The notes under the pieces were generated by a model. The model was not told the DNA's origin and ran no database searches. It saw only the letters and a program-made list of their open reading frames with translations. The translations under genes were made by a program, and so were the position numbers. Below are positions 3,601 to 33,834 of a stretch of DNA of 64,000 nt, piece after piece. The stretch covers positions 51,805,864 to 51,869,863 of the forward strand of contig OV121084.1 of the NCBI GenBank assembly GCA_921293015.1, in the 5' to 3' direction. Source of the stretch: Phorcus lineatus (lineage: Eukaryota > Mollusca > Gastropoda > Trochida > Trochidae). The stretch's first letter is position 1. Each line of letters opens with the position of its first letter.

Positions 3601-3900
3601 AACGTGTTTTAGTACGTCTGACCAATATTAACGCTGATTAGGTACATATTAGTGTGAGTTGTAATCGTGTTCGGGAGACATTAATATGTTTTTGCCTTTC
3701 GAATTACCAGTAAGGGCTTGGAAGTACCATTACAATCATAACAATGTTGCGTGCTTCCTAAATGATTTACACAACTTTGATATTTGGTATTTTGACTGAC
3801 TTTGATGCATATAGTTAACACAGTGGGGAAACTACCAATTTTAAGCACACTGTAATACCTATGTTGCTTGTAATATAAGTTTTTGCGAGCGAATATGATG
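614..3900. other. no recognisable gene; plain AT-rich DNA
   Basis: I see no exon, module or transposon I can support. Short simple runs occur, such as a poly-G tract at about 1046-1058. The small open frames here lack conserved counterparts and look like chance. Confidence 0.4.
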
Positions 3901-4469
3901 GTATGATTTCAAAATGACCATTTGGGTATAATTACTATTTATTAGGAAAGCTTAAAGAAGAAGGTATCAGTCGATTAAGTTGAGTCATGGTCAATTTGAA
4001 ATCCCTTTATGAATATCATGCTGTCAATGGGTTATTAGAGTTCATGTATAAATCTTGCTCAGTTTAAGACGTGCACTTAGTGCGATATAAAATGGACAAA
4101 TCCTTTCATTGATTTGGAAGTGAAAATAACCACTGCACCAAATATGTATATTAGGTTAAAGTAATCGTTGAAAGTATTTCGATGAGGTTTTAAAATGCCA
4201 ACGTGCATAACATTAAATCTGTAGTTTCCTAGCTACAAGGCCCGACTAATTAGTATCCGTCAGAAACTACAATCAGAGTAGAATCACAGGCCAAAGCCTG
4301 AAGTCTTGATCAATCTAAGATGTTATCAGTTATTTCTTGTCACAATATTTTGAACTTCTAGAAATTTATAAGTGTGCATGTTATTCCATTTATTACTATA
4401 TCCAAAGTACTGGCGTGAAGGTCAAAGGATAAACAACAAGAATTGCTACACTGCCCGTTGGGATGCACC

Positions 4470-4600
4470 AGATGGTACAGTGACACTCATTAGCTCAGTC
4501 TATTGCTCTTCCGATGCTCAAGGCACATCTAATCATTGTCTCCTAACTTAATCCGCCTAATCAGATCTCACCTGGGAGTCTTAGTTCACGTACATTACAC
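4470..4600. repeat. recurrent module C, copy 1
   Basis: Block of about 130 bp starting near CAGTGACACTCATTAGCT and ending TAATCCGCCTAATCAGATC. It contains closely spaced TAAT cores (CTAATCA, TTAATCC, CTAATCA). The same layout recurs near 6.3, 11.6, 19.4, 21.0 and 26.3 kb. Function is unknown: a regulatory element with homeodomain-type sites, or an old dispersed repeat, would both fit. Confidence 0.5.
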
Positions 4601-6269
4601 TGATATCGAGTTGAGTTATCATAATGTTCAGATAATTGATACGTTCGACAATGTAAGCAACTGTTTCCATTAAAGAATTTATTTACACTTTCAGTTTGTT
4701 TTCTTTCTTCGAGGTCACACAAGATACTCTATTGAATATGTTAAACGTTATCAATGTTAAACGTTATTATGTGTTTTTGTTTATCAAAACTGTTTCTAAA
4801 AAATAACTAAATGAAAAAACGAAAACCCCAAAATGATTGCCCTTTAGGTTAAAATGGCCCATTGATGCACATATAAAATGTTAATAATGACAATAATCAC
4901 TTTGATATCATCTGAATCGACAGTAATTTTGAGTCAAAAGTAAGTACATGTGCAGAGCATATCATCTTATAATAGTTGTGACTGAAGCCATAATCGAACA
5001 GTGTGCCAATATTTAAAAACGATAAAACTAACGGTCGTCACTACAAATTATTGGCAGGAATAACTTTTTTGTGCTACTGGACGAAGGGGGATATTTTTTC
5101 TCCTTAATTCGGAATAATTGTATAATTATATAATTCAAATTACTTAAATTAATCACATGCAACTGGGAATATCCATAAAACCAGACTTTGGTAAATATCA
5201 AGACCATTTCAACAATGATGTCTGTAGTGAGAAGCGTGTTAGTCTATGTTGTTGATAAAACCGAATTGATATGTTTCTATTTCTGATATCTCACCAGTCT
5301 GCCAAGTACACAAGAATACTTGGAAGAAAACAGATTTGTTTTTGTTTACATTTATAAATGACTGCTATTAATTGTAAATAAGTACCTTTAGGTCGCATCA
5401 TAAATTCGGTATTTCAGAAATATTCTTTAACAATATTTGATTTATCATGGAATATTTGATAAGGTTTGGAAATATTGATAAATCCTTTCTCGTAGGATTC
5501 ATTCAATGAATCTGAGTTTCATGGTTGTCCTTATAATCGTTATCAATGTGTATAATAATATATAATATTTCTTAATTAATTATGGTGGCACGTAGTCACA
5601 AACTAAATTGCTAATTGAATAATTTGAACACAATCAGGCAAACCCAGTGAAATGAAACATTCGATTACCACCCAAGTCTGTCTGTCAACAATTTCCATGG
5701 GCTATGCATTGGCTAAACGATGTGTTTGGAGGAAGCTTGGTCCAGCACACACTGGAATGTATGCTCAACCATCTCGCATCTGCTAGTAACATGGTCTAAT
5801 AGAAATATTTAGTCAGTTCATTTAATTTTGCTATCAGCTTCACCAAACCAAGAATTCTTTGCAAATTCTAACTATACAAACAAAGACATATAACATAGCA
5901 GTAAGGCAATAAGGTAGAGATACAGGATAATAAAATCAATAATCTTTCTAAACTGAACTCAGACAATTAATTCTTAAGATTGATTGGTCGTATCACATCA
6001 TTAAAAAATAAAATAAACAGTTAATAGAATTAAAAGAACGATGAAATGTACCATCTGAAATACGATTAAGGTTGATAACAAACATGTAGTATTTTTAAAG
6101 TGTTAACAGCTGAGATATCTTTATTTTATGAAATATCTATATTTTTCTCACCTCTTACGGTTTACAAGTTTTTCATCTTTTGCCGTTGACAAAATTGTGT
6201 AAACATCATTGATAGTATCAGGTTACAAAACTCACTAACACGCAACTCAGTAGCTGATTAGGGACTGAC

Positions 6270-6550
6270 ATTTAAAATGGTCTTTTTCAGGGACACAAGT
6301 TTGGTCTATTTGGGAGTTCAGGTGCTTTAGACACAACTAATGGTTGTCCTATAGTTAATCTACCCAATGAACTCTTGGGGTTAGACGGTAATGTCGTCAC
6401 ATTTTCTGTTATGACCAGTACCAGAGGAGTTTATTAAATTTTATCTCTGTCTCAGTGAATAGTTATTACCTCGACATTTGGTTCTATTCAAACTACGTTA
6501 TGTTTATCCCATAAGCAGAGGAGTTGTCAGTTTAAAATTTTATGGACGGT
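6270..6550. repeat. recurrent module C, copy 2, with extended flank
   Basis: Diverged copy with ACACAACTAATGGTTGTCC and GTTAATCTACCCAATGAACTC. Its 3' flank (ACCTCGACATTTGGTTCTA and following) aligns with 26330-26600 better than with copy 1, so two subtypes of module C exist. Confidence 0.5.
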
Positions 6551-6944
6551 TAACAAATTCGTAGAGATTGTGCAAGAAATTTGTCATAACTGGTTTGAGT
6601 TGTAAGAAATGTGTACTGCAGAAGATTAACTTTATAATTACAGTAAATTTGCTGCAAAATGTTATTCTATAAATTTAAGGATATATTTGCAAAGCAAATA
6701 AAATGTCAAATCAAATCAGTGAAATTGCAACTATATTAGTTATGAAATTACCCATGCAAAGTATAATAGCAAGACTCTTTTGATAGTGGTACATATGGTA
6801 ATTCCAGATACCAAAACACTTACACTGGTTATGATCTCTTTAAATTTCTTTTAATGCTTTAGAAATTTTCGCCTTGGAATCTCTAATTGTGTGTTTTTGG
6901 ACGTACTACTTCAGGACGCTTCAACGAATTAAAGTCATTAAGGG

Positions 6945-6975
6945 TTCGATATGTCAACAACATCGACATATCGAA
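6945..6975. repeat. perfect 11-bp hairpin
   Basis: TTCGATATGTC at 6945-6955 and its exact reverse complement at 6965-6975, separated by 9 nt. No poly-T or known RNA context, so probably incidental or a remnant of inverted-repeat DNA. Confidence 0.6.
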
Positions 6976-7674
6976 CGTCATCTTATTTTAACTTAATATT
7001 CAAATGTTATTATCTTAAACTTAAAATTAAAACAGTCTGTTGAAAAAAAAAACATATCAGAAACAGCGCTAGCACCTTTTATGTGTTTGACAGATATGAA
7101 AATGTATTAGCCAATACCCTGATGAGTAAACTTCTGTATGATATTTACAAAACATAGGCTTTTTAAAGACATTGAAAAGTCTTTGTTTGGCAGCAGTATT
7201 TTGTTTTCAGTTTTCAAGAAAATTAAATGTGGTTGCTTTAGCCATTGAGTGCGATAGGCAATCTTTTTTGCGTATTTCGGGTATTTCATCGAAAAGGCTG
7301 CAGAATTTTAGCAGTTGAGATAATAGATTTGGCATAGACATTAGAATTTTAGTTATGGTAAAACTTCAATGTGGATATTTTAATAATTTTTTACTTTTTG
7401 CAATAGAAATAAATATTCATTTATCTATTCATTTATTGATTATAATAATTTCAATATAAAAAAATCTGTCTTGCCTCAATGCGTCAATTCTCCACAGAAA
7501 CCGAATATAGTTCATGTTTTGTCTACAAATGACCATCGGACGCTGAAGTCATGAATGATTTTTGGATAATAAACCAATTCAAGAGTGACATGATAATCTA
7601 TTTGCAGACATGTACCTCTAGGAAGATTAAAGTATTGTTACTCAAATAAAACAGTTCCAATTAATCAAGATTGC

Positions 7675-7935
7675 ACTGTTAACAGCATTATTGACGAAGA
7701 CGTCTAATAAAAACATATAACATTACAATATAAGTGTTCACATCCCACACATATAGCTCCAAGCATCGATCAACACGGTAATGTAAACTTCCACTCAGTT
7801 CATACAATAACTGTGCAAATATCAAAGGATACAGTCCAAGTAGGAGAATGAAGATGAAAGCAGGATTGAGGTCGGTGATTGCTGCCCGTGGGGTATCTTA
7901 CAATATAATATCATATAATATAATATCAGTTGAAG
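7675..7935 (-). repeat. array A module D, copy 1 (possible exon)
   Basis: Well-conserved island with counterparts at 14757-14990 and 24500-24655. On the minus strand one frame reads through a hydrophobic stretch (PAFIFILLLGLYPLIFAQLL) that resembles a membrane segment and stays open here. Copy 2 has a TAA in the middle of that stretch and copy 3 stops soon after it. A second minus-strand frame (starting IPHGQQS) ends at a TGA shared by copies 1 and 2, with several silent changes between them. No Met start is seen. Coding is therefore a possibility, not a call, and the correct frame is undecided. Confidence 0.3.
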
Positions 7936-8164
7936 GTTACGCTATCTGAACAAACATGATTAGTGACAAGAACATATTTTATCAACCAAAATGAAATAAA
8001 GCAACATCAAGTTAAGGTCTGTTCAGTTTGATTTTTACCAACTTAAATGCTTATTCATGCAGTAAATATATATATTATATGACATTACACGACATAAAGG
8101 TAGAAAAAATAACGTTTTCTAAAACGATTTTGATAAACAGATTATTTTTCCCATGTTACTAGAA

Positions 8165-8420
8165 CATCAGTGAAATACGTTTATCTTACTCTTGCTTAAT
8201 GCATTGAAAGAAGAGGCACCTGTTCCCTCCCTGACCCCGGACAAACTCCCACCACATCACAAAGGGCTCTCGGCTTGATTCCATCAGTTATCTCGGCTAT
8301 CACAAGCAGCAAACAAAAGGCTGCAGATGCTTGTAGTTTTTATTATTACATTACGTTTCCCTGGAGGGGCTTGCAAACCTGTATTAATATATATATGAGT
8401 AAGTCTTAGTTATTGTATAA
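8165..8420 (-). repeat. array A module D2, copy 1 (possible exon)
   Basis: About 250 bp, near-identical over its core to 15225-15475, with a weaker third copy at 25615-25790. On the minus strand a CTGCAG acceptor-like site precedes 101 nt, ending at CAG|GTGCCT. The open frame includes a hydrophobic run then IKPRALCDVVGVCPGSG, and copy 3 keeps RALCDGVGVNLG. Differences in the core between copies 1 and 2 are silent in this frame (GTG/GTT, CCG/CCA), but one plus-strand frame (IERRGTCSLPDPGQTP) is equally silent. Copy 2 carries a 1-nt insertion that breaks the frame upstream. The strand is inferred from agreement with module F. Confidence 0.3.
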
Positions 8421-8644
8421 GTTGTGGGACTTCAGAGTGAAACACGACATAGTGTTAAAGTGTTCCAAGATGTTTGACATATGCTATCGATATGTATGTT
8501 TAATGAACGTTAGCGTTAGTCTTTTGCTGTCTCATCTTTGTCCTATATATGCATGTCTCATTTGTGATTCTCTTTATCAATCGCCCTTACCTGACATTGG
8601 TCATATACCATAAATGACAAAATACTTTAAAACCAGTTGTCCTA

Positions 8645-8830
8645 AGCAATTAGCATCACTGACGGCAAATCAACAATTGATAGAAAAAAATCACCTTGAA
8701 ATTTGATAATCTAATGGTATTATTCATGGAAATGTGTAAGCATATATGCGTCGAATGTGTCCCGGCTATGCATAGCGTAATAATAGATACGACGTCGACA
8801 ACAGCATCAGATACCATGCTCTCGTGATGA
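8645..8830 (-). repeat. array A module E, copy 1
   Basis: Aligns with 16550-16735. On the minus strand both copies end a partly open frame at AAATTTCAAG|GTGA, a plausible donor. The upstream acceptor is unclear and copy 2 has an in-frame TGA. It could be a decayed exon or simply a conserved island. Confidence 0.3.
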
Positions 8831-8899
8831 TTGTGTATAATTACCTTATCTCTAAAGACAATATCCTTTTTTCTAAAAAGAAACATAAACTTATTTTAC

Positions 8900-10453
8900 A
8901 TTGATGCTGATAAATCTACTTTCTTCCAAGACTCTGGTTTCAAATACGATGAGAAACGATAAATCTAACTGTAGTTAATGCATCCTAACTCGAAAACAAA
9001 ATGCTGATTGTCTTTCTTAACTAGGGGCTGATAAAACTATTCAACAGTGGTATTGAGGGAAGTTACAATTACACATTTGAAAAACAATTTGAAATACATA
9101 CTTTTGAACATTTTGTTCCATCAAAGCAAATGCCTTGTAGGATATGTGCAACTGAAGTACTCAAGTAGGGTCAAATTATTTACAAGTACACATGCCTTAA
9201 ACTCAGAGTACATTAAACATATGACATTGCATCACCTTTTCAATCCATTGTCTTGTTGAACATAATATAATTCAGCAGATGATGTTTAAAGCCATCAAAC
9301 GTCTTGGCAAAATCTAGAAACAGACAGTGCATCTTTCCTTAAGATTAAAATAGATGTTTTAGTCTGTAGCCCTTCCTAAACCTAGCTCTTAGATCAATGA
9401 CATCACATCCACTCCAGCCTTGATGTGTTCATCCATCAGGGTCTCGGGCTTTGTTAGTTGGCCAATATTTCAATATCTGTGATTTCTTTGTAAAAATATA
9501 ATTTATAGGTTTAGGCTGATATGTGTTCACACTTAATCTGTCAAAGACTGTTTCATAAATCTCTCAATAACATTTTGGTGTGTTATACAAGTTCCTTGAA
9601 GTGGTTAATCCATCAGATGATAGAATAGTCATAACTTTGAAATCACTTTTTATCTTGTATTTTTTAATATTTTACCACGATTGTTTTATTGATGTTTTTC
9701 CTGTATCCAGTTTTGATAATGTTATATTATTTTTACAGACTGTCTCCGTTGAAAATGTCCTTTCCTTTCCCTGCATAAGTGCTTTAGTTTGTTTCACAAA
9801 AGTTTCTGAGTTTGAGGTTCTTGATCTGACTTTCCAACACCACAGACAGCGACTGCAAAATTTGACGTTCATCAAATCAGGGGCGATAATTTGCCTTCTT
9901 GATGGAACACCATTTTTTGCAAACGATTCTTGCTGGTTTGGTTAACATTTTTCATTGAAACGTGGATTTGTGTTGTTTGTAGTTTTCATTGTTCAGACAA
10001 GTGAATAAAAAAAAATATATTGACCCGTATGTAGCGATCCTGTGCTTGGATCGTAATTTTGTATTGCACACATCCTGAACTCTTTTTGTGGAATCAATCT
10101 GCCGGAACTGACCAAAATTGGAGCATAAGGTTCTCTGATCTCAAACGTAAGGCAGATTGTAACTCAACAGTTTAGATAACAATTGAATTGACGTGTAGTG
10201 ACGTTTTTATTTTCGCCTCTCAGTTGTAGCATAATGATAGACTGATTTCAAGCATAACGACTTTTCATCAAAAGTGCCTTTGAAATAACGTATGCCTTTC
10301 TATGCCTATATATACCACATTCATATCAACTCTTATGTAAAAGTTGCTTTCCATGTTTTTTAAATGATTTTTTGCTTTAAAAAATCTTACTATGCATTTT
10401 ATACAATAAGAAAAGTTAAAATTGGTCCCTTTTTATGTTTGAGTTGTAAAAAA
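8900..10453. other. no supported gene
   Basis: AT-rich spacer of unit A1. An open frame of 121 codons at 9580-9945 (plus) and a shorter one opposite at 9672-9875 have no recognisable domain and no counterpart in unit A2, so neither is called. Confidence 0.35.
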
Positions 10454-10755
10454 TTAAACAACAATGATGTTATGGAAAGAATTAATACAGTTTTTGTGCT
10501 TTTCAACGAGTCCAACATTCTCCAAATCAATTAAGCGTTTCCGTTTGTGAAGAGTGTATGTCACCAGGTCCTTTATATAATTGCCTGTAATGATTTTCAC
10601 CAGGCAAAACAGCGCCTGTATTCAATAAGAAAAGATTGTTAACCCGTTCGCTAAGGATACAGATTTAAAAAAGTATTCAGTTATTCAACGGTGATGTGTA
10701 ATTATCTATTTTCTTTCAAGACGTTGGTATCAACACAACAGAATCGCGACGCCAT
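10454..10755 (-). CDS. candidate two-exon small gene in module F, copy 1
   Basis: No family is recognised. Exon 1 (10723-10755) reads MASRFCCVDTN from an ATG in the context AAAGATGGCG, then AAC|GTCTTG as a donor. A 107-nt intron ends in ATCTTTTCTTATTGAATACAG, a good pyrimidine tract with CAG. Exon 2 (10454-10615) continues in phase 0 with ALFCLVKIITGNYIKDLV and reaches TAA after 53 codons, 64 residues in all. The paralogue at 17159-17407 keeps the ATG, exon-1 length, splice sites and phase. Exon-2 differences are silent or mild (TGC/TGT, I/L, D/E). Similarity drops just upstream of the ATG, as expected for an untranslated leader. Exon 2 may instead splice out at CTG|GTGACA. The plus strand also offers splice-like signals here, but no shared start. 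Confidence 0.38.
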
Positions 10756-11584
10756 CTTTCAAGGAATGAAACGGTGAGAGCAACTGCAACTGTGACTATC
10801 TTTGTTATTTCAGTCAAATATGGGCACATTTGAAGAATTATTAAATATGTGGGGTTATGATATTGTGATACCAGTATATGTTTAAATGTCAAGGTTCATG
10901 CAGTGGTTGAAAAGATATTGCGCTAACAAGAACGGGACCCACGTACTTACGTATGTAAGTGGTGGCGTATAGAATTGAATATAAATGAGGTAGAGTTAAT
11001 ATTTTTAGTTGTATTTAAATTTTTAAATAAACATGTGTACTGAATGTATTGGTTTGTTATATTTCGATGTAAAATATACTCATTTATATGTTAGAATTGG
11101 TCAGTTAACTATATGTACACTAAGTGCAACATCATACGGAAAATTCCTATCAGTAAGTTGGGAGTGAATTTCTATTAATCATCATTGGACACAAATATTT
11201 AAAAAATCTCGAAAAGTGGTTCCTTGAACTTTTAAAATGACAAAATGTACAACATTTAGTCTGTGTAGCTTCCTAGCTACAAGGCTCAAGTATCAGTGAC
11301 TGAAGAAATGATACCTTAATACCTCGCACCTTCGAGCCATTGAGAGTATAGGCCGTGTTTTTAGTCTTTCTCAGTCAAAGAAGTCGAATCATATTAACCT
11401 TCGTAAACGTTAGAGATATTCATGACATTACATAACACTCTGAGAAGACTGATAAAGAACCCACAAGAGCAATCTTGCTTTCTTATTCGAATTATCCAAA
11501 TAATCCAAGTAATGATGTAAAGGTCAAATGCTATGTTTAATGATAAAGACAAGAATTGCTGGACTTCCCCATGGGAATGTACCA

Positions 11585-11710
11585 GATGGCACAGTGACAC
11601 TCATTAGCTAAGTCTATTTCTCTCACTGTGCCCAAGGCACAACCAATTATTGTCTCAGAACTTAATCCACCCTAATCAGATCTTGCCCAGGAGTCACCTG
11701 TTCACAGTTA
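11585..11710. repeat. recurrent module C, copy 3
   Basis: Begins GCACAGTGACACTCATTAGC and contains CTTAATCCACCCTAATCAGA, matching copy 1 closely. One TAAT core differs (CCAATTATT here). Confidence 0.5.
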
Positions 11711-12700
11711 CAGTGTTATAGAGTTCAGCTAGTCTAATTTAAAGATCATCTAGAGAGTTAAACAAATTAAGGAACTGTTTCCATTAAAGCATTAATTTAT
11801 AATTATTTACACTTTCGGAATTTCTTTTTCCTCAAGGTTACACTCAATATTTTCTGATGAGAAATATGTTCAATGTTATGTATTGTGTTTTTATTTATCA
11901 AAAGGTACGTTGTACTGACTTCTGCTTGAATTAAAATGGTACATACAGACTGTTGCTTAACATTACAATTTAAATTGTAAATAACAGACCCAAATATAAG
12001 CGTCTTTTAATGCTAAATTCGTTAGTCAATACACATTTGAAATATTTACTGTCATCAATGATCACTTGATACAATCTGAACCGGTATCAATTCGTATGAC
12101 AATATTCAAAACTGATAAAAAGTTATGAGTAACTAATTTTTCAAATTTGGCAAACTTCTTTTTTACAGCTGTTAGCAGGGAGTAATTTTTTTCTAAGATT
12201 TTATACCATTTTTATATATTAAAGCAAAATCCTCATCTTTGCATGGTCCTTAAAAGTAACCTAAGAGACAGAAATAGGCAAAGATCGAGACTAATTCAAC
12301 AAGAAGCCTTGAAAGTCTATCTCATCGATACTATGGAATTGATGTGTTTCTATTTCTGACATCTGACAAGTCAAATAAACAAGAATCCCTAGAAGGAAAC
12401 ATATTTACTTTTTCAATGATTTTTTTAAAACATAATAAATGACTGTGCTTTCTTTGATTGCAAATCAGTGCGTTAAGGTTGCATCGAACGATGAACGAAT
12501 TCATAAATGCATATTTCAAACAATATCTTATCTATCTTGGAATCTTTACAAGCTGTATAAAGACTGATAATTTCTTTTGGCATTCTTCATCGTTTTGAGA
12601 ATCATTATTATGGTTATCCTTATCATCATTCGTAATGTGAATCAGGTATGTATAAAAAATAATAACTGTATTAGTTATTGTGACACATGGTCCTGCAATG

Positions 12701-12870
12701 CTCATGAGAGCATCAGGCCTGGGTCGCCCGTCGGGTGGGTTGCCACATTTATCGCTGGATTAACTGAGTGTTATGATAAGAGCAACTCATAAGAGCATCA
12801 GGCCTTTGTCGCCCGTCGGGTGGGTTGCCCCATGCATTGCTAGATTAACTGAGTGTTATGATAAGAGTAA
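12701..12870. repeat. 85-bp tandem duplication (2 copies)
   Basis: Two adjacent copies (12701-12785, 12786-12870) each contain CATCAGGCCT, then GTCGCCCGTCGGGTGGGTTG, then TTAACTGAGTGTTATGATAA. They differ at only a few positions, so this is recent. The GC-rich core stands out from its AT-rich surroundings. No counterpart is seen in unit A1. Confidence 0.9.
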
Positions 12871-14689
12871 CGGAGGTATCTTCATCATTATTGTCATTCA
12901 TTCTCATTTTTCACATTCTTCTCATCAATCGCAAACTAAATGTTAATCAATCAAAAAGTTGTGAATGCATTTGAGCCTCATCATAACAACATTAAGTTTA
13001 ATTAGTTTTATTCAGTTTGTTTTAAAAATGTAAAATTTATGTTTTTGCTATTACCGTTCCCACTTATTGGATCTTAATTTCAGATTAATTTTACGTTCAC
13101 AACAATATGAAATAAAAAGAAAAGCTGTGAATTTAATCATACGAGTGCCACTCCATTCTACCTGTCAACAATGGCCAGTTGCATGGGCTAGAGGACCGAG
13201 TGATTGTCTACCTGCAACTGCATATTTGGGGAACATGTTGTCTGTTGAGCATTGAAACCAGAAGCTGTTTCCAAAACTCCCCAGAAATTACACTTTACCA
13301 TCTCGCACCTGTCAGTAATAGGTCATAAATAGTTTTGAGTTAGTTCTGTTTATAAAGGTTATCTGTTCAAAACCAGTTCTTTGCAAATTCTAACAACAAA
13401 AACAAGGAAATTTAACGTAACAGTAAGACAATAAGGTACCCAGATAATTTAGTACATAAACTAAACCAAGATTATTAATTCTGATGATGGGTTGGTCTTA
13501 CACATCACATTACAAAACATTAGCAGTTAAAGAATAAAGGCTGCACTGCACCTTCTGAAATATGATAATGTTTGATAACATTTAAGTAGTTTATCATTTT
13601 ATTTTCTCTATAGTTTTAAAAGTGTTAGCAGCTGAACAAGTATGTATAGACTCTACCATCTCTTATATCTAGACCCAGACCATAAAGCCCTTATACCACT
13701 TACTGTACAAATTGGTTCTAAAGCAATATTCTTTGCTCATGATGCACATTTTATCCTTCACTGTGAATGGTTAATGTCTCAAAGAAATACCTTCAACGTG
13801 GCCTTACTTGATTTAGATGCCTATGTATTGTAGAGCTCTTAGATGATGACGATGTTCCTGCTATTTCGCATTGACAAACCAACTGTCGTTGTTGTAAAAA
13901 TTGTGTTGTACAGCGTATTGCTTTGAATGCCTTGTAGATTTCCTGTGTATATGCATGCAACTTATTCATAATTTATGCTTGTAATCTTCAACTGCCATTG
14001 CAGGAAATAGAAACATTCAATTATTCATGTTTTCTTGGGGCAAATAATTCTTATGTTATGCCGGTCAAATTCAAAAGATATATTATGCATTATGGTGAAA
14101 CCTGGTACACCTTTACATATAAATTGGTACAATAAATAAAAAGTTGAAGTTCTTGACATCTAGTTTTTCCTTATTCCATCTGTTTTAATTTTACAGTACA
14201 AGTTAAATGATTCAGGCTGATTCAGTCAGGTTAGATAGTTTACTCAGAATAAATTATGTTTAAGGCGCTTGGTAAAAGTTTGAAATAGACTGCGTTTTAG
14301 GGTAAATAAGTAATGTTAGTTGCCATGTCAAGGTTCACGACTGCACCGTGTTTTAGTACGGTAGGTGTCTTACCATAATTCATTTTACGAAATTATTTTT
14401 GTTTATGTTCTTCCATGGTACATGTTCATGTTGAAGGTCATGATATCCTTTAGTGAATGTGAAGTGTAGAACGATTGACAAACTAATTTCGGGTACTTGA
14501 CATGGAAAGGACTGCAAATTTCAGAATTCTTATTTTAAAGTCCTAAGTAAAAGCATTGACATACAAGAATACAAATAGATAAATACAAGAATAAAATTTC
14601 CAAATTAGAACTTCAATCGCAATATTGTTTCATCATAAAGAGAATTTGAATGTTCCAAAGTCTGTTCTGCTCCCCCGGATTTTATTTTC

Positions 14690-14731
14690 AAATATATATA
14701 TAAATATATATATATATTTATATACATATAT
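14690..14731. repeat. AT microsatellite
   Basis: Imperfect (TA)n run with A and T interruptions, just before module D copy 2. Confidence 0.85.
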
Positions 14732-14756
14732 TCTTACTATTATTCAGATGTTAAAC

Positions 14757-15475: not shown

Positions 15476-15734
15476 ATGTAAGTGTTCGGACGTGGGAGTG
15501 AAACATTACGCAGTGTTAAAGTGTTCCAAAATGTTTGACACATGCTATCGATATGCACATGTATAAATGGAATGTAAGCATAAGTCTTGTGCACTCTTAT
15601 CTGTGTCCCATATATGCCAGTCTCATGCGTGTTTCAATGGTTCCAAACAGGTCAGTATGCCACACTAATACAAGAAAAATCATAATTAATCTCATAAAAG
15701 CATAATAATTTTATTAAGTAAAGCACACTGTCAT

Positions 15735-16184: not shown

Positions 16185-16549
16185 ACTGTCATTGAAAGGA
16201 AAACATTTATCTGAAACATGTTTATTATTATCATGACGTAGCAAATGTACAAAAAGGCTAATGAAACTAACACTAGCAAACTATGTAATACATGTACAGT
16301 CGAAAACTCCATTAATCACATGTCCTCACTATTACTCGTCTTTTGAACAACAATTTTACTGATATCTCATTTATACTTAATGAACCATATCTTTTCCCAA
16401 TCATTTTCTCGAAATGGCAATATTGACAACTATATATTTCCAACTTAAAAAACAATAGAAATGTTGAATGTCAAACATTACCTTCATTCCTCTTTACCTG
16501 ACATTGGTCATACAATAAATTACAACAAATGTAAATTATTAGTAAGTTG

Positions 16550-16735
16550 AACTAAGCAATTTGGATCATTGACAGCAAATCAACGAATAATAGAAAAAAC
16601 AGTCACCTTGAAATTTAGTCATATGCTACTATTCATTGAAAAGTGTAAGTATATAATATTATGCCATGAATGTGTTCTGGCTAGATTAAGTATAACTTTA
16701 GATACGGCAACACCATCTGTTGACATGTTTTATTC
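16550..16735 (-). repeat. array A module E, copy 2
   Basis: Counterpart of 8645-8830 sharing CAAATCAACNA, CACCTTGAAATTT and ATACGGCAACA-type segments. It has an in-frame TGA in the minus-strand frame that is open in copy 1. Confidence 0.35.
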
Positions 16736-17158
16736 AGTTATTTTACATTATTTTACATTTTTTACATGGATGATGATTAATCTGTCTTCTTTCAACATAT
16801 TGGTTAATACGATTTCCATCAAGGAAAATGCTGAAACAATTAAAAACACATTTTTTAGTAAAATCTTAATAAAATCAGACGTTTGCCAAGCGGTTTTAAC
16901 ATAGCCGTTTTTAGGTTTCATTTCGAGACTTATTTATTTCATTTTCAAGATAATTAACCTTGTCAACAATACCTATGCAAAATCAATGGCCATAGTTTGA
17001 TTTGCCAGAAACTTGTACATATGACCGTTTTTTGCCCTCTTAAATTATGAAACATACACATTCTACATGTTTCTAGAAATTATTGGTACATGTGGATATC
17101 AGAATTAAATCTGACTTTTACTAAGTATGCTAATCAAAGACTAAATAGAACTGGCTGA

Positions 17159-17407
17159 TTAATTTAATCCAAATTGATCATGATCAGGGCCTAGATTTTT
17201 TTTAAGAGTGTATGTCACCAGCTCCTTTATATGAATGCCTGTAAGGATTTTCACCAGACAAAACAGCGCCTGTATTCCATAAGAAAAGATTATTAACCCG
17301 TCCCTGAAGATACAGCTTTCGAAAATTATTCAGTTATTTAACGGTGATGTTGATAAATAGTTTTTCTTTCAGACCTTGGTATCAACACAACAGAATCGCG
17401 ACGCCAT
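17159..17407 (-). CDS. candidate two-exon small gene in module F, copy 2
   Basis: Paralogue of 10454-10755. Exon 1 (17375-17407) encodes MASRFCCVDTK and ends AAG|GTCTGA. The intron is 105 nt and ends ATCTTTTCTTATGGAATACAG. Exon 2 (17159-17269) continues in phase with ALFCLVKILTGIHIKELV, then diverges from copy 1 after VTYTL and reaches TAA after 36 codons. The abrupt loss of similarity after VTYTL suggests that the true exon ends near there, perhaps at CTG|GTGACA, with the rest being intron. Product unknown; no domain is recognised. Confidence 0.36.
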
Positions 17408-17784
17408 CTTTCACGCAAGGAAGAAGTGAGAGTTTCTCAGCTGAAAAGAAAGCAAATGTTGATTGTCAAACAATTGATTTCGGACAAATAATCTATTAGA
17501 AACACATTAAAAATTATATTTGTAGGGAAATATTATTTTTGAAAGTGATCTTTGTATATATGTAAATGTCAAGGTGTTCAACATTAAACTCATTCAGCTT
17601 CCGCAGCCGAAGGCCATGCATCCATGCCCTGTAGGAATTATACCTTACCATCTTACACTTCACCACGGCACCCTTCCATTTCGTCTGTAGGCGCCATTAC
17701 GTTGTGTTACAAAGAAAACTTATCAAAGATGTGTAACGGTCTCTTTTAGGTCAATGTCAAATTGAAATCCGTTTAAATGAATAT

Positions 17785-17819
17785 CGTAAGTGACCATTAT
17801 GTAATCTTGGTCACTTACG
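17785..17819. repeat. perfect 12-bp hairpin
   Basis: CGTAAGTGACCA at 17785-17796 and its exact reverse complement at 17808-17819, with an 11-nt loop. It lies in the segment leading into module A of unit A3. Function unknown. Confidence 0.65.
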
Positions 17820-18746
17820 CTTGGTGCAACAACATAGGGAATATTCTCATTTGTGAGTTGCTAGTGAATATCTATTTATCACTAAACCAAGTAAGGACAT
17901 AAGGATAAAATAATCTATGTGGTTCCTGGATCTGTTCAAATGACTCATGTAGAACAATCAGTCTGTGTAGTTTCCTAGCTAAAAGGCACAACTTATCAGT
18001 GTCCTTCACTTCCACCTAAATACAGCACACCTGCAAGCATTGGCTCAAGGTACCGGCTGTGGAGATCAGTGCGGGCCATCATCACTTATATAGAGAATCT
18101 CACCCAAGTGTCTTCAGATATGATATGTTTAAACAATCATGTATTAATGATGAAAGCAAGAAATACCTGAGGTTTTTGCCGATGACATTTTTACTTTAAT
18201 CAACGAGTGTTGATATACTTGATGTCAGAAGACACAGGGGTGAATTTTTTTTTATCAACCATATTCATTCTTCAAAATTTTTCAGTAAAAGAATAATTGT
18301 AACATGACTTCGTTGTGTTTTCGATTCTGATTGGTTGATTTGAAAAAATTACCCTATGTTGAATGACAATGAATACCCGCAAACTAGCTAAGGCGATTCA
18401 CCGCGAAGTGCAGGCCCGACTCAAGTTCTCCTTTTCCAGTTTTGGCTAGTTTAAGACTTTTATACTTGGGGTTTTACGATATTTTTCTACGAGCTTTTTG
18501 ATTGTTGAATTTCGATTTCAAATTAAACAAGTATGTTGTAAGGTCTCTCTGTTACGATTGCCACTATTTTGTATTATCAGTACTATGTTTGTAATGTAAA
18601 TTATGCCGGGAATTCACATTAGTTAGACCTTATCACACCTCTTACAGAAATAGAACAGTCGCAAAGTCCTTTAAACATAATAATAAGTACGCAAAAACAG
18701 AGTCCGCTCTGAAACTTCTAATAACTAACGGTCATGTTACAATATC

Positions 18747-18907
18747 GATAAATAGCTGCGTTTGTAAAATTTCCGGGATTCATTTTTATTCAACGACCGC
18801 AAATTTTAGCGTGTAAAACCTCCGGCTAACGCCGTCGGTTTTAAACTAAATTTGCGGGTGTTGAATAACAATGAATCCCGGAAATTTTACAAACGCAACT
18901 ATTTATC
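18747..18907. mobile_element. foldback (inverted-repeat) element, about 160 bp
   Basis: Left arm GATAAATAGCTGCGTTTGTA pairs with right arm TACAAACGCAACTATTTATC. Pairing continues inward through AAATTTCCGGGATTCAT / ATGAATCCCGGAAATTT to a short CG-rich centre (GGCTAACGCCG). The arms are about 60 bp, so nearly the whole element folds on itself. A related half arm (GTTGAATGACAATGAATACC) occurs at about 18358. No protein is encoded. Confidence 0.85.
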
Positions 18908-19354
18908 TTCTAAATCGCTGATCATAAAACTGCCAGTAGGCATCTTAAATAGTAAAAGCATAGCATTTAACGTAATCAGCATTACGTAAAAACGTAAATA
19001 GGTCATCAACATTGTGACGTCATAGCATTGTTCTCATGTTCTCAGTGATGCCAATGCATTCTTAGGTTATTACCTTATGATGCACTTGTACATATCTACA
19101 TTGTACATATCGCTTGTAGATATCACTTGATCTTACAAAAACATTATCTACTTTGAAAGCCTTTTTAGGATGCTAGATCTTATAAAAGTGTTTTGATCTT
19201 CATGAAATCGAGGATTATGCATGTCACTTCATTACTCTTTGAAATGAAATGTTGGCGTATCCACATAATCGTTATTTGGGCAATCCTGCATTGCTATTCT
19301 TTTTACTTAGTGAGCCATACCGTGAGGATTAAATTGTCTGTTTGACAATAACCC

Positions 19355-19480
19355 ACAATCAGTGATGGAGATTCCAAGCAGCTACGGTGGTATTCATTAC
19401 CTGTGTCTGTTGTTCTTCCGATGCTAGAGGAAATATTGATTATTATCCCCAAACTTAACCAGAGAGTCAGCCTTCATCTG
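19355..19480. repeat. recurrent module C, copy 4
   Basis: Diverged copy with TTGTTCTTCCGATGCTAGAG (copy 1: TTGCTCTTCCGATGCTCAAG) followed by TTGATTATTATCC and AAACTTAACC. Confidence 0.4.
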
Positions 19481-20606
19481 CTGGTCATATTTTATGTACA
19501 AATACAAAAAGTTAGTATGCACCAAAAATTACGAAAATAAAAAACCTTTCGAAATATTTACACATTGTTTATTTCAACATTCTTGTCTGTTTATATCATA
19601 AACGTATATTTGTATTATCTTGTACTGTTGTTGTTGAAGTTTGAGGAAAATAAACTTTGCTTGATATTCACATTGCACTCATTAATCAAGTTAAGACAAT
19701 GATCCCCTTTTTTTAGATAAAATATATTAACATTTAAGTTTATATGATTAAAAATAATTTCATACAAGTTACATTAAATTTCTTTTGGACATTTGTCAAT
19801 CATTTTTGGTATTCTTAACTAGAGGTACTAAATGTACCTGAAAATGACCATTTGAATGATAAGTACAAATAAGTTGGCCCGATTAGACAAAACCAAGGTC
19901 AATTGTAATTTATATGATATATTCAATTATACTGATAATAATGACAGGAGTTAAATAAGGGGCCTGTCTCTTTGAACATGGTCATCAAGGTCGTCTTCAA
20001 CTAAACGATCCGACTGACCTTGGAACAATGATAACACTGAAATAAGGGTACAATTCGTTTTCAGCAGTAAGATCAGTATTTTCTTATTTTCTTGCTGACA
20101 GAGTGAACTTGCATTGTTTTTTATAGATCTAATTTGCAAAAGACAAGGATGGTATTTGTTTCGTGACATCAAACACACCACTTCAGTGTCCCATGGTCCC
20201 ATGAGAAGACGACTTCTAGATAGTCAACCAAGAACTCTTTAGATGTCAACTTGTACAACATTTACTCTACGAATTCTTAAAGTTCGAAGCAATATCCAAC
20301 AGAAATTAAAGGTAACCAAATACATGTAGCACCTGCGAGCAAATTTTTGTAAAATACGTCTTGAGTCCCGAGTCTTTTTAAAATCGTTACCAGTTTTAAA
20401 AATACCTTAAAAGTCAATATGCAAAATGCAAGTTTTTAAATAAACATTTATCAAAGCAGCCCCAAGTATATTTGATATATGCTTATTTAAAAAAATTGTA
20501 TATAAGGATGGCTTAAAAATTTATTTCACCAAGTTAGACTTCTTTTTAAGTAAATTTACCTAGAAAGAATTTGATATGCAAATCTAAAATCATTTTTGTT
20601 TATCTG

Positions 20607-20753
20607 TATGGGTGGTACTGCGCTGATTTTCAGTGAAGCACTGCATCCAAACCTTACTGCCTGCAGAACAGTTCTCTACTGCAGACAAAGTTGATGAGCT
20701 CCTGGCGGGATTCGAACCCCGGATCTCTCGTTCCGAAACCGAAATAGCCTACC
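20607..20753 (-). mobile_element. tRNA-derived SINE, 5' part, minus strand
   Basis: Reverse complement of the 5' half of the SINE at 40715-41029. It includes a B-box-like GGGATTCGAACCCC (minus sense GGGGTTCGAATCCC) and the spacer with GAGAACTGTTCT. The 3' tail is missing, so the copy is truncated. Confidence 0.75.
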
Positions 20754-21009
20754 TGAATGAATTGAAAAATGCTTTAAAAATCTGCATCAAGTTGCATATA
20801 CCGAATTAATGTATTTCATGATTCTAAATCCATTTGAGATGGTGACGTTAATCCTTAATTACTAACTAAACAAGGATGTACATTACAAATGACGCTTCTT
20901 TGGGAGGCAAGTAACACAAGCACTGATAGACAAGATTATAAATTGCCTTTACATTTGGACATACATTACATAAAACCAGCTGATGGGCTTACTAGAGCTT
21001 GTACTAGAT

Positions 21010-21110
21010 CCGTGTAAATGTCATAGTGTCACACACTGGGTGAGACAGTTAATGATTGCCCTTTACTTAGTCTGCCTAATCAACTTCCTCTAGGAATGAC
21101 ACGGTCGCAA
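21010..21110. repeat. recurrent module C, copy 5
   Basis: Contains AAATGTCATAGTGTCACACA, GTTAATGATTGCC and TAGTCTGCCTAATCAACTTC, then GACACGGTCGCA. Closest to the copy near 26.3 kb. Confidence 0.45.
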
Positions 21111-22113
21111 AAATATATAGGTGAATCTTAGTGACATTATTAGTACTACACGAGTCCTGTTTCATAACATACAAAAACATTATTGACGCAAAAGGCGTAC
21201 GTAATCTAACTTTTGTCTTGAAATAGTTTAAAGCTTCTGACCCTCGATATTTTATCAATCTAATTGAGTTCACCACACAAAATGAATTCCCTGGTGATGT
21301 CTGAATTCCTGTGTAAAGATAAATACTTCAACAAATTGAAAACGTCAATGCTCTTGTTTGGTTGGGTGCAGTCCTTAATGAAAAAGGAGACCATTAAGAT
21401 AACAAATTATAAAATCATAAGTAAGAGCGTTTGGCATTTTGTCGTAAATTTGAATTAGTCATCATTTCTTGGCAAAATACTATACAGTCAATACTTTTAG
21501 AATGTTATTTTAAGAGACAATTTTTAAACAAATAAGGATAAGTGTGTGGTATGCCAGGAACACTTTTGTAAACCCCTACAGGGACATGGGGTCAAAAAGA
21601 AAATAGAGATCATATTTCTGCAATGAAATATTAATTGCGCACATTTTCGACAATTGTTTGGTCAAATTAGACGAGTGGTGAATATTATGAGATATCTTGA
21701 CTTTTTTCAAAAAATAATTTGAAATGATAATGAAGAAATGTGTCAAATCCCTGCCTAATGTGTTCCTGTAGTACTATAAGTGTCGTCTTGAAGTATTCAT
21801 GTTTTGTCATCATCTCAAAAACTCGTAACTTTTGGATGCATGATGCTTGCATAAGTCGACCTCAAATAAATACCTTTCCACGATAGTTAGAAATTGGTAA
21901 CACAAATTAATGTTCAGCAGCTGTATCATCAATGCATCTACAAGTTGTTGCTGATAACATTACCCTTCCATGTAGATCGTAAATATTTTTTTTTCATTGC
22001 TTCATTGCTTAACTCTGATGATTAGATTAAAACGTAAATGTAATTTGACCTCGGACAAATATGATTAGTTATTAGGAATTTTGGGCAGCAAGCATATCAA
22101 TTGATAAATGACC

Positions 22114-22160
22114 GGTTGGTATAGGAATATATGACTGAGCTTCCTCTGTGGGGAGAGAAT
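22114..22160 (+). mobile_element. MITE right-end remnant
   Basis: Only the terminal arm remains: GGTTGGTATAGGAATATATG followed by GCTTCCTCTGTGGGGAGAGA. It matches the right end of the elements at 172-613 and 15735-16184. Confidence 0.7.
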
Positions 22161-22199
22161 AACGGATGGATGTTCAGATATGTTAAGAAGGTTTATGCT

Positions 22200-22345
22200 A
22201 AGAATGAGTGAGGGGGGTTTAACAGCAATATTTCAGCGAATTTAACACGTGCATTTTGCCATCCAAATGAGAATGGATAGATCAGGGAGCAAAGGAATCG
22301 AAAGGTAAAGGGAACAGACGGAATGAAATGACAAAGTGAGAGAAA
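22200..22345 (+). repeat. old dispersed repeat R2, partial copy
   Basis: Core GGGTTTAACAGCAATATTTC followed by AACACGTGC and a purine-rich segment ending AAAGTGAGAG. It shares this layout with 22935-23185, 44733-44830 and 51712-51965. The core resembles a SINE-like repeat common in gastropod genomes (from memory, not a search). Confidence 0.5.
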
Positions 22346-22934
22346 TACTGCAGGTTTCTTGCTTGCTTCCTTCCTCTGTAGACCAGTTCATCGTGGGTAT
22401 TGCATATGCCTTTTTTTAATTATTACTTTGTCTTTTTAGTATAAATATTACTGCGTTGTCATGGTTATCCGACAGTTTGGCCAAGCCATCAAAATCGGTA
22501 TCCTAAGACTGAACAGACAATCGCGGAGGTGTTTTGAGATACTTAATAACATAATTCATCACCCAAAACAATGCCCATTGATTTGTTTGTTTAACAGATC
22601 TGTGTGTCACAGTCTGTCAAAGCGATTTTCAACTTTGCCATCAGGCAGTATATTCTTAGTCCTCAAATGTTTTAAATCATTGTCCTCGTCACTTGGATTA
22701 TCATGTGGACAGATGATATGAGACTTTAAACAATTTGTGTCTTAAGGATTATGAAAATTATGCAAATTGCAAGAACAAGGCTGTGTAACCACTAATTAAA
22801 ATAAAGGTAAAACTAACGAACGTTTTAAAGAAATGATTGAGCATGATTTAGCTTTTTACATTAAAAAACAAAATGAATACGAATACATTGAACATCTTTG
22901 ACAAATCAACATTCTCCTCGTGTATACATAATAA

Positions 22935-23185
22935 GTGAGTATGTGAGTTGGGGTTTAAACATGCTTTCAACAATATTTCATTTATTAAACACGTGGACAA
23001 GTATCGAAAACAGTGAACAGACCAGGAAGAAACGGATCGAAAGGATAAGGGAAAGAAAGGCACAGTGAGAGATAAAAAGCAGGTTTTTAGAAGGACTCAA
23101 ATTTGACCTGGCTTCTACCGTCGACATGTTAGCTCCAGCTGGCATAGCTCTTTAGGTCTCTGAAGCACGCAAACCACCACACCAC
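22935..23185 (+). repeat. old dispersed repeat R2, longest copy
   Basis: Runs from GGGGTTTAAACATGCTTTCA through AACAATATTTCA and AACACGTGG to CATAGCTCTTTAGGTCTCTG and CAAACCACCACACC. The 3' half aligns with 51880-51965 (GTAGCTCTTCGGGCGGGGAG). The overlapping small open frames at 23152-23398 are probably chance. Confidence 0.5.
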
Positions 23186-24082
23186 GATAAGGTATTGAGT
23201 TCAGTGGTGGAAATGTATATTCCGGATTGCAATTTAGACAGATTTACGAATGTCCGAGGACACATTAGCAGAATCACATTTACTTTACACCCTGAATTAT
23301 TCATCAGACACGTTTCAAGGTGGCAAATTAGAAATGTTCCTTCTTTAAGAAAGAAACACATGTACTGGATTGAAAAGGTCTCATCCAAACTCAAGTAAAA
23401 AATTCGATTAATGATTGGTCACCCATGACAATAACTGATGAAACTGTCTTCAACAAGATACTTCTTAATACTTCCGTCATGACATAGCGTGCCATGAAAA
23501 AAGCTTGCAAAGTGTCTGTTTTGAAATGTATGTCGCATGGAACTCATCGATCTCATCGATACTTTTGATCAAACGATGCTATCCTGTTTTTCAAACTTAG
23601 AAAATGATAAATTATATAACAAAACTGGGGCGTTGTTAATATTATACTTGGTGTTTGATGAGTCTAATGTTGACGATCAATCAACTGGTGTAGTGGTGAT
23701 CTTGAACATTATATACTAATGACATTTTTCTTCACTCACAGTTTTCTTTCCGTGTCCTGCACGGGCAGCTGTGACAAATTATGCGACAGTCGTTTCTGAT
23801 CATTTTCCGAAATAATCTTAACTACGCAGTCGGCCCTAACACGACTGACGATGCATGTTTTCAATAGAACACTTCAAACTTATGACCTTGACCCATGAGC
23901 TTATAGTGTTGACTTCTGACGTAATCTATAACCACTGAGTCGTCTGGTCGAGTGTTGACCCAGTTTGAACTTATCAAAAGGATCTGGTACAGTTTGGTTT
24001 GTATCTCTAATGAGCTCAATTAATACAATCGGGAACATAAAGTTTTATAACATTCCGTTAAGGGACACAGGCGCCTAACATA

Positions 24083-24227
24083 ATACCACCCATGGTTTGC
24101 TAGTTCCAGCTAATGCTCGCAGGTTTCACCGCATTGCATAGCCACAATGGTGTTGCCGGCTTTCTCCCTGCAATAATACCAGCAGACGCAATATAAGTGA
24201 AATACTCTTGAGGGCGGCGTTAAACCC
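24083..24227 (+). mobile_element. SINE 3' part
   Basis: Matches the 3' half of 40715-41029: ATACCACCCATGGTTTGCTA, GATGCTCGCAGG-like block, TTCTCCCTGCAATAATACC and the tail TGAGGGCGGCGTTAAACCC. The tRNA-like head is missing. Confidence 0.8.
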
Positions 24228-24499
24228 ACAATCGTCACATAGTCTTCTCTCTGTGACATTTGTCCAAAATATCAATAAAAACCTCAAACTCGGCACCTAG
24301 TAAAACACGTCTTATAAGGCAAAACAATCAATAATTTTATCCTCCGACCAGATGAAAATCGAACTGCATCCTGGAGATAAAACGTTGTATTGATATAATT
24401 GACATTGCACGGTACACATCTTTTCTACGTCGCTATCTAACGAAACAGTTGACGTTTACAATACTTAAGTGTATTGATTTAATATTTTTGCCCTTATAC

Positions 24500-24655
24500 C
24501 TCAAAGCATTAGTCAACACAGCCATGTAAGTATCTCCTAAGATCATACCAATCATTATATAAATATCAAAGGAGTTCGTACAAGCAGGGTAATAAAGATG
24601 TAAGCAGTGTTAAGGTATGTGAATGATGCCCTTAGGTAACCCTCTTAAAGGAATC
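24500..24655 (-). repeat. array A module D, copy 3
   Basis: Weak paralogue of 7675-7935. The hydrophobic minus-strand frame stays open for about 28 codons (AYIFITLLV, TPLIFI) and then meets two stops. The homologous frame being the open one is mild support for coding ancestry. Confidence 0.3.
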
Positions 24656-25437
24656 AATTCGAGGTTCACTCCCTGAAGAAACATTAGCAAATCTAGAGCG
24701 AGGGAATTGGGATTTAACGTACTATATTTCATTTCTGACGTTCTTCCATGGTTTTTCGATTAAATGACCCTTGACCTGCCAAATGTCACAAAAGAGTCTT
24801 TAAGACTAGTGTGCCATACCATCGGCAGGAAAATTAAAAAGATAAATTCAGAAAGAATTGAATGCTGACACAAGTCAACATGTTTGTGTTATTCTGAACA
24901 CCATATATTATTTCGGTTTGTTTTTTTGTAAATATAAATTACGCCCAAATGAATGTGCAACTCATTTTTTTTAATTTAAAAGCACATATCATGATTTCAT
25001 AATGATAAAATACAACGTCACAAAAAATCTTTTAACTTATATGGTGAAGTTAATAATTACTTGGATGTCACTTTGTAAAAGAAAAAACTAATAACTTATA
25101 TAATTATAAGAAGTTAAGTAATGTTATTTAGGTGTGGTTAATATTCTTTAGATAATCATCATGCTACGTATATCCTTTTTATATTCAATGTTCTATGTTT
25201 TTCCCACTGTTTTTCACAAGTACAACACTGAGTACAACAAAGATATGCAGTCATTGAAGAAACTCCAGTAAGACGCTCTAGAAGGCGTGCTTAAAACTTA
25301 ATAGCTGTACTACATACAGGTTATTGGAAATCTCTAATCTATTAACTGCGCTACCGCAACTTTATTTCCAACTGAATCAGAAGCCCGCATTTATTATAGT
25401 GGAAATTCCACTAAATTCTATTTTCATTGCACAGGTA

Positions 25438-25614
25438 TGTGTGATAACAAATATGTTATTCATGCATTTGTCGTTTTCATTGGCTGAAATATTGCCAGGT
25501 AATTCAAGTTGCAATATCATGCCGGCAGGATAAACTGCCGGAAGTCCGAGAAACCTGCGAATTAAGAGGGAGGTTGCATAGGATTTTAAGACAGAGATAC
25601 TTCTGTGGGAGAAA
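25438..25614 (+). mobile_element. MITE, 3' half, decayed
   Basis: Contains AACAAATATGTTATTCATGC, the internal GCCGGCAGGATAAACTGCCGG palindrome region and a worn right arm GGAGGTTGCATAGGATTTTA. The left half is missing. The small open frame at 25324-25533 overlaps it and mirrors the one in copy 1, so it is element-derived. Confidence 0.75.
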
Positions 25615-25790
25615 GGCTTACCCCAGGTTAACTCCTACGCCATCGCAAAGAGCTCTCTTGTTGACTTTTATGTTTCTCTGCCTCAAACAGAGAAAATAAT
25701 TCTTCATATATTATTAGTTTTTATCATTGTACGTTTTTCTGGAGGGTTTAAAAACCTGTGTAAATATGTTCATGGGTAGGCAAAAGTGTT
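25615..25790 (-). repeat. array A module D2, copy 3
   Basis: Minus strand reads KRALCDGVGVNLG, then a GGG|GTAAGC donor-like site. The 3' flank (TAGTTTTTATCATTGTACG, CCTGTGTAAATATG) also matches copies 1 and 2. Confidence 0.35.
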
Positions 25791-26040
25791 TGTTAGTATC
25801 GGGCCAAGTGGTTTAATACACACAGTGTAAATGTTTTTTTATCGATTTATAGATGTATCTATTGGAAAATACGTGTATGATTTTGGCCAAACTTATCTAT
25901 ATCTATATATATATATAAGACAGTGACCTTTTTGTTTGTTGTTGTTTCCATATATATCACAACGTTTCAGTGCTAGCTGTCGATCACCTGAGGATTATGT
26001 ATATGGTCCAATGCAGGACTTATCAGTGTACTGATGCCAC

Positions 26041-26081
26041 ATCATCATCATCATCATCGTCGTCGTCGTCATCGTTGTTGT
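26041..26081. repeat. trinucleotide microsatellite
   Basis: (CAT)n grading into (CGT)n and (TTG)n. A poly-His frame at 26034-26237 is a by-product of this repeat. Confidence 0.85.
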
Positions 26082-26289
26082 TGTCCTTGTTGTCATGTTG
26101 GACGATCAAATCACTCGAACCAAGCTGATCTGCTGGGTTATTATTTCACACCGAAGGCTATAATGTTTCAAATGTTTATGATATTCATGAATTATATTCA
26201 GTTACAAATTCATGCTCACATCAAGGCTCTTGCTTAGTAGGTGTGAAGTCAAGTAGTCTTGTTTGCACTGATGGCCAAGTGTTAGTACT

Positions 26290-26600
26290 AAAACTGCGTA
26301 AATGTCACTGTATCACTAATTAGTTGAGTCTAGAGGGGTTCGGCTGCTCCAGACACAGCTAATGCTTGCCTGTACGTAATCTACCTAATTAACTCAGATC
26401 TGTTGGTGACACGGTCACATTGCCGGGATATTTCAAACATGGTCAGTATCAGAAGAAGTGAGCTTCATAACATTGATGATTTCAGCAACAGCGTATTTAA
26501 TCTAATCACGGACTGAATAACCTCGACATTTGATTCTAGTCAAAAACGATGACGTCTATACCACGAGGGGAGAGTATATATACCAATTTTATGTTTCACA
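26290..26600. repeat. recurrent module C, copy 6, with extended flank
   Basis: Contains CACAGCTAATGCTTGCCTG and GTAATCTACCTAATTAACTC, followed by a flank that aligns with 6400-6550 (ACCTCGACATTTGATTCTAG). Confidence 0.5.
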
Positions 26601-26850
26601 ATTAAATTGATATATGTCGAAATTTGTGTAAAGAAATATATGTTAAGACGGTGAAACACGTCAAGATTTTCCGTTGATAGAAAATAAAATAAGGCAGAAG
26701 AAAATGAATAAAATATAAGCGATGATTACCTTAAACAACACACCGATCTATAAAAAAACTTGTAATATCCGCAAGTTTTTTAAGGTAGGTTCTGCTTGAA
26801 GATTGATTATTGTTTCAAGATACTAACTAATACTTTTTTGGAATTCGCAG

Positions 26851-26911
26851 TTAAGCTTTCTCCAAGGAAATCAGAAGAATATAAAGTGAACGAGAAGCGA
26901 CGCCTTCTAAC
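26851..26911 (+). other. candidate internal exon (61 nt)
   Basis: Predicted from splice signals only. TACTAAC at 26821-26827 is an ideal branch-point sequence, followed by TACTTTTTT and GCAG at the acceptor; the donor is AAC|GTAAGT. The third frame is open (KLSPRKSEEYKVNEKRRLL), rich in charged residues. No paralogous copy is evident and no neighbouring exon can be joined to it. Confidence 0.25.
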
Positions 26912-33758: not shown

Positions 33759-33834
33759 GCTTGCCGTCTTGGTCCTCATAAACAATCAAAACCATTTAAC
33801 GATCATATGCGTATTTCGGGCTCTCAGTGTATCA

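Follow-up and report, generated by a model that had tools for sequence, protein, structure and literature searches.

Self-comparison of a 64-kb stretch of the Phorcus lineatus genome (contig OV121084.1, positions 51,805,864 to 51,869,863; hereafter the window, numbered from its first base) revealed a real, ordinary old tandem duplication, denominated array A. It consists of one ~7 kb tandem duplication together with a third copy at ~17.7-26.6 kb that is older and further decayed. Copies 1 and 2 of the ~7 kb duplication (~4.3-11.4 and ~11.4-18.0 kb) were 74-87% identical where alignable. An initial reading made from the sequence alone (the sequence-only reading) had described three collinear units; the three copies are real but not equal, the switch of partner at ~11.4 kb being explained by a ~7 kb duplication nested within an older pair. 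A second array downstream (array B) also showed nested tandem duplications. The arrays lie in AT-rich DNA (guanine plus cytosine, GC, fraction of 0.31-0.37 per 2 kb) that is eukaryotic and animal-like in character.

Tandem order and partner switch in array A

Copies 1 (4300-11400) and 2 (11400-18050) were delimited by self-alignment and the partner switch at ~11.4-11.55 kb, their ends being approximate, and the third copy (17690-26630) by blastn, nhmmer profiles, and pairwise identity, all on the forward strand. Nine modules were defined (H, start, A, C, D, D2, E, F, and G), at positions that may not match the module letters of the sequence-only reading, which came without coordinates. Module order was identical in copies 1 and 2, as had been claimed for the first two units, and the collinear direct diagonals expected ~7 kb off-axis were present with self-alignment offsets of 7042-7529 for modules start to F. 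H and the beginning of the following unit gave offsets of 6654-6700, and G, which lies past a mobile-element insertion in copy 2, gave 7907.

In the unmasked window, 63 of the 80 blastn self-matches were direct and 17 were inverted, the latter comprising 11 matches between ends of a miniature inverted-repeat transposable element (MITE)-like family, three between short interspersed nuclear elements (SINEs), two self-palindromes, and one pair at 48125/49336. Masking the MITE and SINE families alone left 51 of 54 matches direct, and under a longer hand-made mask that also covers the inverted pair, one palindrome, and simple repeats all were direct (40/40). A sensitive nhmmer tile search of the masked window gave 78 direct pairs among 81 merged, the three inverted pairs being local fold-backs. 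The controls returned no blastn self-matches for the reversed masked window and no nhmmer matches at E<=0.01 for 103 reversed 600-base tiles. Within the window the modules were not scattered in both orientations, and nearly all matches were direct after MITE and SINE masking.

All modules are on the forward strand. The left-most start module (unit 1; 3939-4290) was supported by blastn (3939-4262 to 17707-18008), nhmmer profiles, and pairwise identity, and blastn and nhmmer located its other copies at 11061-11348, 17754-18050, and, in part, 20228-20370. Module A, with a peak at 4450-4590 (self-alignment and nhmmer profiles), is a small repeat in its own right, occurring six times in array A (4470, 6294, 11584, 19377, 21017, and 26300). 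The less conserved C, D, and D2 (4680-6090; copy 2 at 11800-13590) were identified by self-alignment and nhmmer. The module E peak (7774-7893; copy 3 at 24396-24637; self-alignment and nhmmer profiles) matched copy 2 with identities of 0.95 and 0.88 over two windows of 60 columns. It is followed by the E-F stretch (7981-8215; copy 2 at 15003-15273), defined from window identities and nhmmer and locally 0.85-0.90 identical between copies 1 and 2. Module F (8205-8570; copy 2 at 15268-15635; copy 3 at 25617-25910), identified by self-alignment, nhmmer, and the codon test, reached a peak identity of 0.97 at 8218-8277. Module G (8577-8950; copy 2 at 16484-16813) was found by blastn and nhmmer, and H (10544-10895; second copy at 17198-17575; relative in array B at 38514-38669) by self-alignment and nhmmer profiles.

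Copy 3 holds five of the nine modules in order, namely H (17198), start (17754), A (19364), E (24396), and F (25617). D2 was marginal there (E=0.025 in one profile search and 0.0027-0.0053 in another), and nhmmer profiles recovered none of C, D, G, and the E-F stretch from this copy. The claim that most modules recur in the third unit consequently holds only if H and start are counted.

Identity of A, E, and F was 0.81-0.87 between units 1 and 2 and 0.63-0.73 between either of these and unit 3, and the two array A copies of H were 0.835 identical. The start module showed a different ranking, with 0.768 between units 2 and 3, 0.745 between units 1 and 2, and 0.693 between units 1 and 3. Tiles of unit 2 at 10500-10949 and 11100-11399 scored higher against unit 3, and those at 11550-12599 scored higher against unit 1 (top score of 22 among 17 reversed control tiles, array A only). 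Similarity switched partner at ~11.4-11.55 kb in array A and at ~44.8 kb in array B, as tandem duplication gives. A single duplication of ~7 kb, nested within an older pair, explains the switch and the identity pattern.

Uneven decay and coding tests

The unevenness of decay along the units, also proposed in the sequence-only reading, is real but moderate. Identity variance over 82 windows of 40 aligned columns was 1.46 times binomial (p=0.004), a value reached by none of 90 uniform-divergence simulations (at most 1.30 times binomial). The five best windows averaged 0.94 compared to at most 0.91 in the simulations, a comparison biased toward unevenness because the simulated mean identities (0.69-0.76, under simple settings of our own) were below the observed 0.79. 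The seven best windows fell in A, E, F, and H, with one (8193-8232) straddling the front of F; the eighth-best (8073-8112; 0.90) and several at 0.85-0.875 fell between E and F. Three of the patches with the closest agreement between copies 1 and 2, namely A, E, and F, could also be traced in copy 3, a persistence that suggests shared constraint. In composition, modules A and E and the 5' portion of F were GC-rich, as exons tend to be, lying at the 86.6th-99.8th percentile of 100-base windows.

Codon-wise substitution patterns in the islands showed no excess over four column-shuffled controls. A first codon test of 153 windows gave a median z of -0.19, and in a codon-aware test 3 of 204 open aligned runs were at z<=-2.5 (lowest -2.89) compared to 5/192, 1/185, 4/180, and 1/165 in the controls, two of which went below -3 (lowest -3.85). 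The three runs corresponded to the F minus strand, the F plus strand, and an array B run at 38955. Module F is the best coding candidate, with a 31-codon run in the plus frame from 8200 carrying four synonymous and two non-synonymous changes between copies 1 and 2 (z=-2.6). The non-synonymous changes lie at both ends such that the 29 inner codons encode the same residues, and an overlapping minus frame gave z=-2.89. The frame is open at 15228-15392 in copy 2 and broken between copies, with (by eye) copies 1 and 2 differing in length by one base just past the conserved run and a stop plus a deletion beside a mobile-element fragment in copy 3. A pyrimidine-rich stretch and CAG directly precede the conserved run in copy 2, the CAG being absent from copy 1 (by eye). 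These features fit a broken-down gene or chance, and coding in F is not claimed because the shuffled controls give such z-scores as often. Indels in the array A alignments were multiples of three in 34 of 151 cases, no more than chance.

Further candidates were rejected. The copy 2 frame of F (15228-15392) matched only two beta-lactamase chains among solved structures (E=0.83), taken as chance, and the F core had no matches in viral contigs. Module E was discarded as an exon since substitutions occurred at first, second, and third codon positions and copy 3 carries a single-base insertion (by eye). A 53-base piece of H (10721-10773 and 17373-17425) is flanked in both copies by a pyrimidine-rich AG and GTGAGAG, but its three weaker relatives (in array B, G1, and G2) disagree, GTGAGAG being kept in none and AG in G1 only (by eye). 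Among the matches listed from a mutual comparison of the stop-to-stop frames in all six reading frames, many fell on both strands and in several frames at once, as any conserved DNA gives.

A six-frame Pfam scan with X at stops displayed no family above its curated cut-off in 4000-63800 (four of six frames for 32301-33802; 1-3999 and 63801-64000 outside the scan; thresholds of E<=1 in part of the scans and E<=0.1 in others). The best match (E=0.0068) scored 16.3 bits against a cut-off of 80, and four weak matches (PF08999, PF14387, PF22795, and PF23775) were all far under their cut-offs and were dismissed. Transposon protein domains were likewise absent at the Pfam cut-off in the stretches scanned, and no open frame started by ATG, GTG, or TTG exceeded 137 amino acids in the 64-kb window. 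The suggestion that the islands are exons or regulatory elements of a tandemly duplicated gene was thus retained as to tandem duplication with unequal decay, whereas the codon controls, the Pfam scan, and the broken frame of F did not demonstrate exons.

No Rfam family reached its gathering score in the window. The sole match at E<=1, snoZ118 at 12043-12135 (E=0.0077; 35.8 bits compared to 48), lies outside the islands and was rejected. Ten folds, covering both strands of A, E, F, H, and the array B module P, were ordinary, with z from -0.88 to +1.43, and ARAGORN found no transfer RNA (tRNA) genes in the window. The islands may be regulatory DNA or non-coding exons.

Array B, mobile elements, and other repeats

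Array B (28490-64000, forward strand; self-alignment and nhmmer) continues beyond the window end. It contains two copies of a longer duplication, at ~32.36-44.8 and ~44.8-59.8 kb and joined at 44.8 kb, each of which (~12-15 kb) retains traces of two older units (modules P to V), i.e., nested tandem duplications. A further copy begins at ~61.75 kb and runs out of the window, and a forward-strand remnant of module U was identified at 29657-30049 (E=1.9e-19). The most conserved patch seen in the window also lies here, at 34297-34420 and 46052-46175, with one 60-column window 100% identical and the next 92%; it displayed no stable fold and codon z no lower than -1.72 among the runs listed.

Module H is common to both arrays (10567-10736, 17221-17425, and 38514-38701), its array B relative at 38514-38669 being recovered at E=2.1e-8 with a profile built without it. 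Module Y, found pairwise and then profiled, has four direct copies across the two arrays (22205-22391, 22942-23193, 44723-44824, and 51699-51968). As arrays A and B have at least two modules in common in the same orientation, they may be one old array. A direct repeat (807-1166 and 31010-31392; E=1.6e-9) connects the left end of the window with the interval separating the two arrays.

The insertion between F and G in copy 2 is a ~450-base element with ~70-base inverted ends (15736-16185; self-alignment), absent from the matching place in copy 1. Other copies were detected by self-alignment at 168-613 and 37329-37763, with fragments at 22110-22160 and 25424-25612. Its 9-base flanks were alike at 8/9 positions at 15.7 kb and 7/9 at 0.2 kb (by eye), with no matching flanks for the copy at 37.3 kb, and the near-matching flanks of these two copies suggest a Mutator-like MITE. 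A SINE with a tRNA-like head was identified by self-alignment at 40730-41020 and also at 20608-20743, 24082-24226, and 28208-28325; the tail at 40730-41020 may be of a kind present in molluscs. Short tandem arrays were present at 12701-12871 (unit of 85 bases, inside unit 2), 28928-29046 (11), 33565-33758 (14), and 60978-61210 (110). Additional features were a 76-base inverted repeat pair that is 89% identical (48125-48200 and 49336-49411) and self-palindromes at 752-794 and 18747-18907. No description of the array appeared in the titles or abstract openings of the papers searched.

Origin of the array and related systems

We consider array A to be an old tandem array formed by successive unequal crossing-over, in which the slowly decaying patches would be relics of a duplicated locus whose constraint lapsed at different times, with a probability of roughly 0.5. 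Any gene of the duplicated region would be decayed, non-coding, or unrecognised. An older duplication would have given two units, and a second event would then have duplicated ~7 kb, beginning immediately past the start module of unit 1 and ending immediately past that of the old right-hand unit. With such endpoints, the left end of unit 2 would resemble unit 3 and the remainder would resemble unit 1. Later mobile-element insertions and indels would have eroded the copies, and the patches could be non-coding exons, regulatory DNA, or exons of a since-broken gene. From this pattern we infer both the mechanism, unequal crossing-over, and the cause of the uneven decay, constraint.

Several observations weigh against this scheme. 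The start module prefers unit 3 over unit 1 by a small difference (0.768 compared to 0.745), the tile at 10950-11099 scored 25.5 compared to 27.0 with the latter at a non-collinear place, the tile at 11400-11549 was tied (21.0 and 21.0), and the H tiles show merely that unit 1 has no H on its left. Regarding constraint, the overdispersion is only moderate, and the equally similar E-F stretch (0.85-0.90) was not found in copy 3, a pattern that fits conversion or chance better than lasting constraint. The start module, in turn, was found in copy 3 without being a conservation peak. GC-rich sequence may appear conserved for mutational reasons, and neither H (64th percentile over its first 100 bases) nor the 3' part of F (80th percentile) is strikingly GC-rich. 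Finally, the comparison is confined to copies within one window.

The behaviour of the E-F stretch also suits a plain tandem duplication of non-functional DNA, with patches due to chance and gene conversion under zero constraint, as do overdispersion of just 1.46 times binomial in the alignable parts and the lack of a coding or structural signal. This explanation is less likely, since A, E, and F are readable in the older copy 3, a persistence not accounted for by conversion between the first two copies alone, and none of the 90 simulations reached the observed overdispersion. It is unlikely that the whole window is one long-lived array of at least seven head-to-tail non-coding units with the short elements E, F, H, and P kept by selection in each copy, such as multiplied exons of a long non-coding RNA or parts of control regions.

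A cluster of protein-coding genes that arose by tandem duplication and still function, belonging to a family outside Pfam and having A, E, F, and H as short exons, would account for the GC-rich patches, the z-scores of the two F frames, and the pyrimidine-rich stretch and CAG in copy 2. This reading appears quite improbable given that such z-scores were as common in shuffled controls, both F strands compete for one signal, the F frame differs or is broken in the ways described above, the CAG is missing from copy 1, only 34 of 151 indels were multiples of three, and no Pfam family passed its cut-off. A similarly slim prospect is that the modules are common dispersed repeats, or that a large, ancient transposable element happens to occur several times in the window. 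The six copies of module A, the four of module Y, and the true dispersed elements (the inverted-ended element and the tRNA-like SINE) point in that direction, but module order and spacing are kept over ~7 kb, direct matches make up 51 of 54 once the MITE and SINE are masked, similarity changes partner at ~11.4 and ~44.8 kb as a tandem duplication gives, and no transposon domain reached the Pfam cut-off in the stretches scanned.

With its nested tandem duplication and hybrid middle unit, array A provides a clear worked case and amends the view that its three units are equal. Were the patches truly selected without coding, multiplied copies in one genome would offer an internal comparison for finding functional non-coding DNA.

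Among known systems, tRNA-derived SINEs are resembled by the element at 40730-41020 in its tRNA-like head and Mutator-like MITEs by the inverted ends and near-matching flanks of the ~450-base element, but these elements interrupt the array and are not its repeated unit. Pseudogene-rich tandem gene clusters in animals are similar in that short GC-rich patches outlast their surroundings and the third copy is more decayed, and differ in that no recognisable parent gene was found for array A. Although its copies are without a recognised gene, array A shares with tandem duplicates formed by unequal crossing-over the head-to-tail copies in the same orientation, the hybrid middle unit, the nested duplications, and the single-copy insertions.

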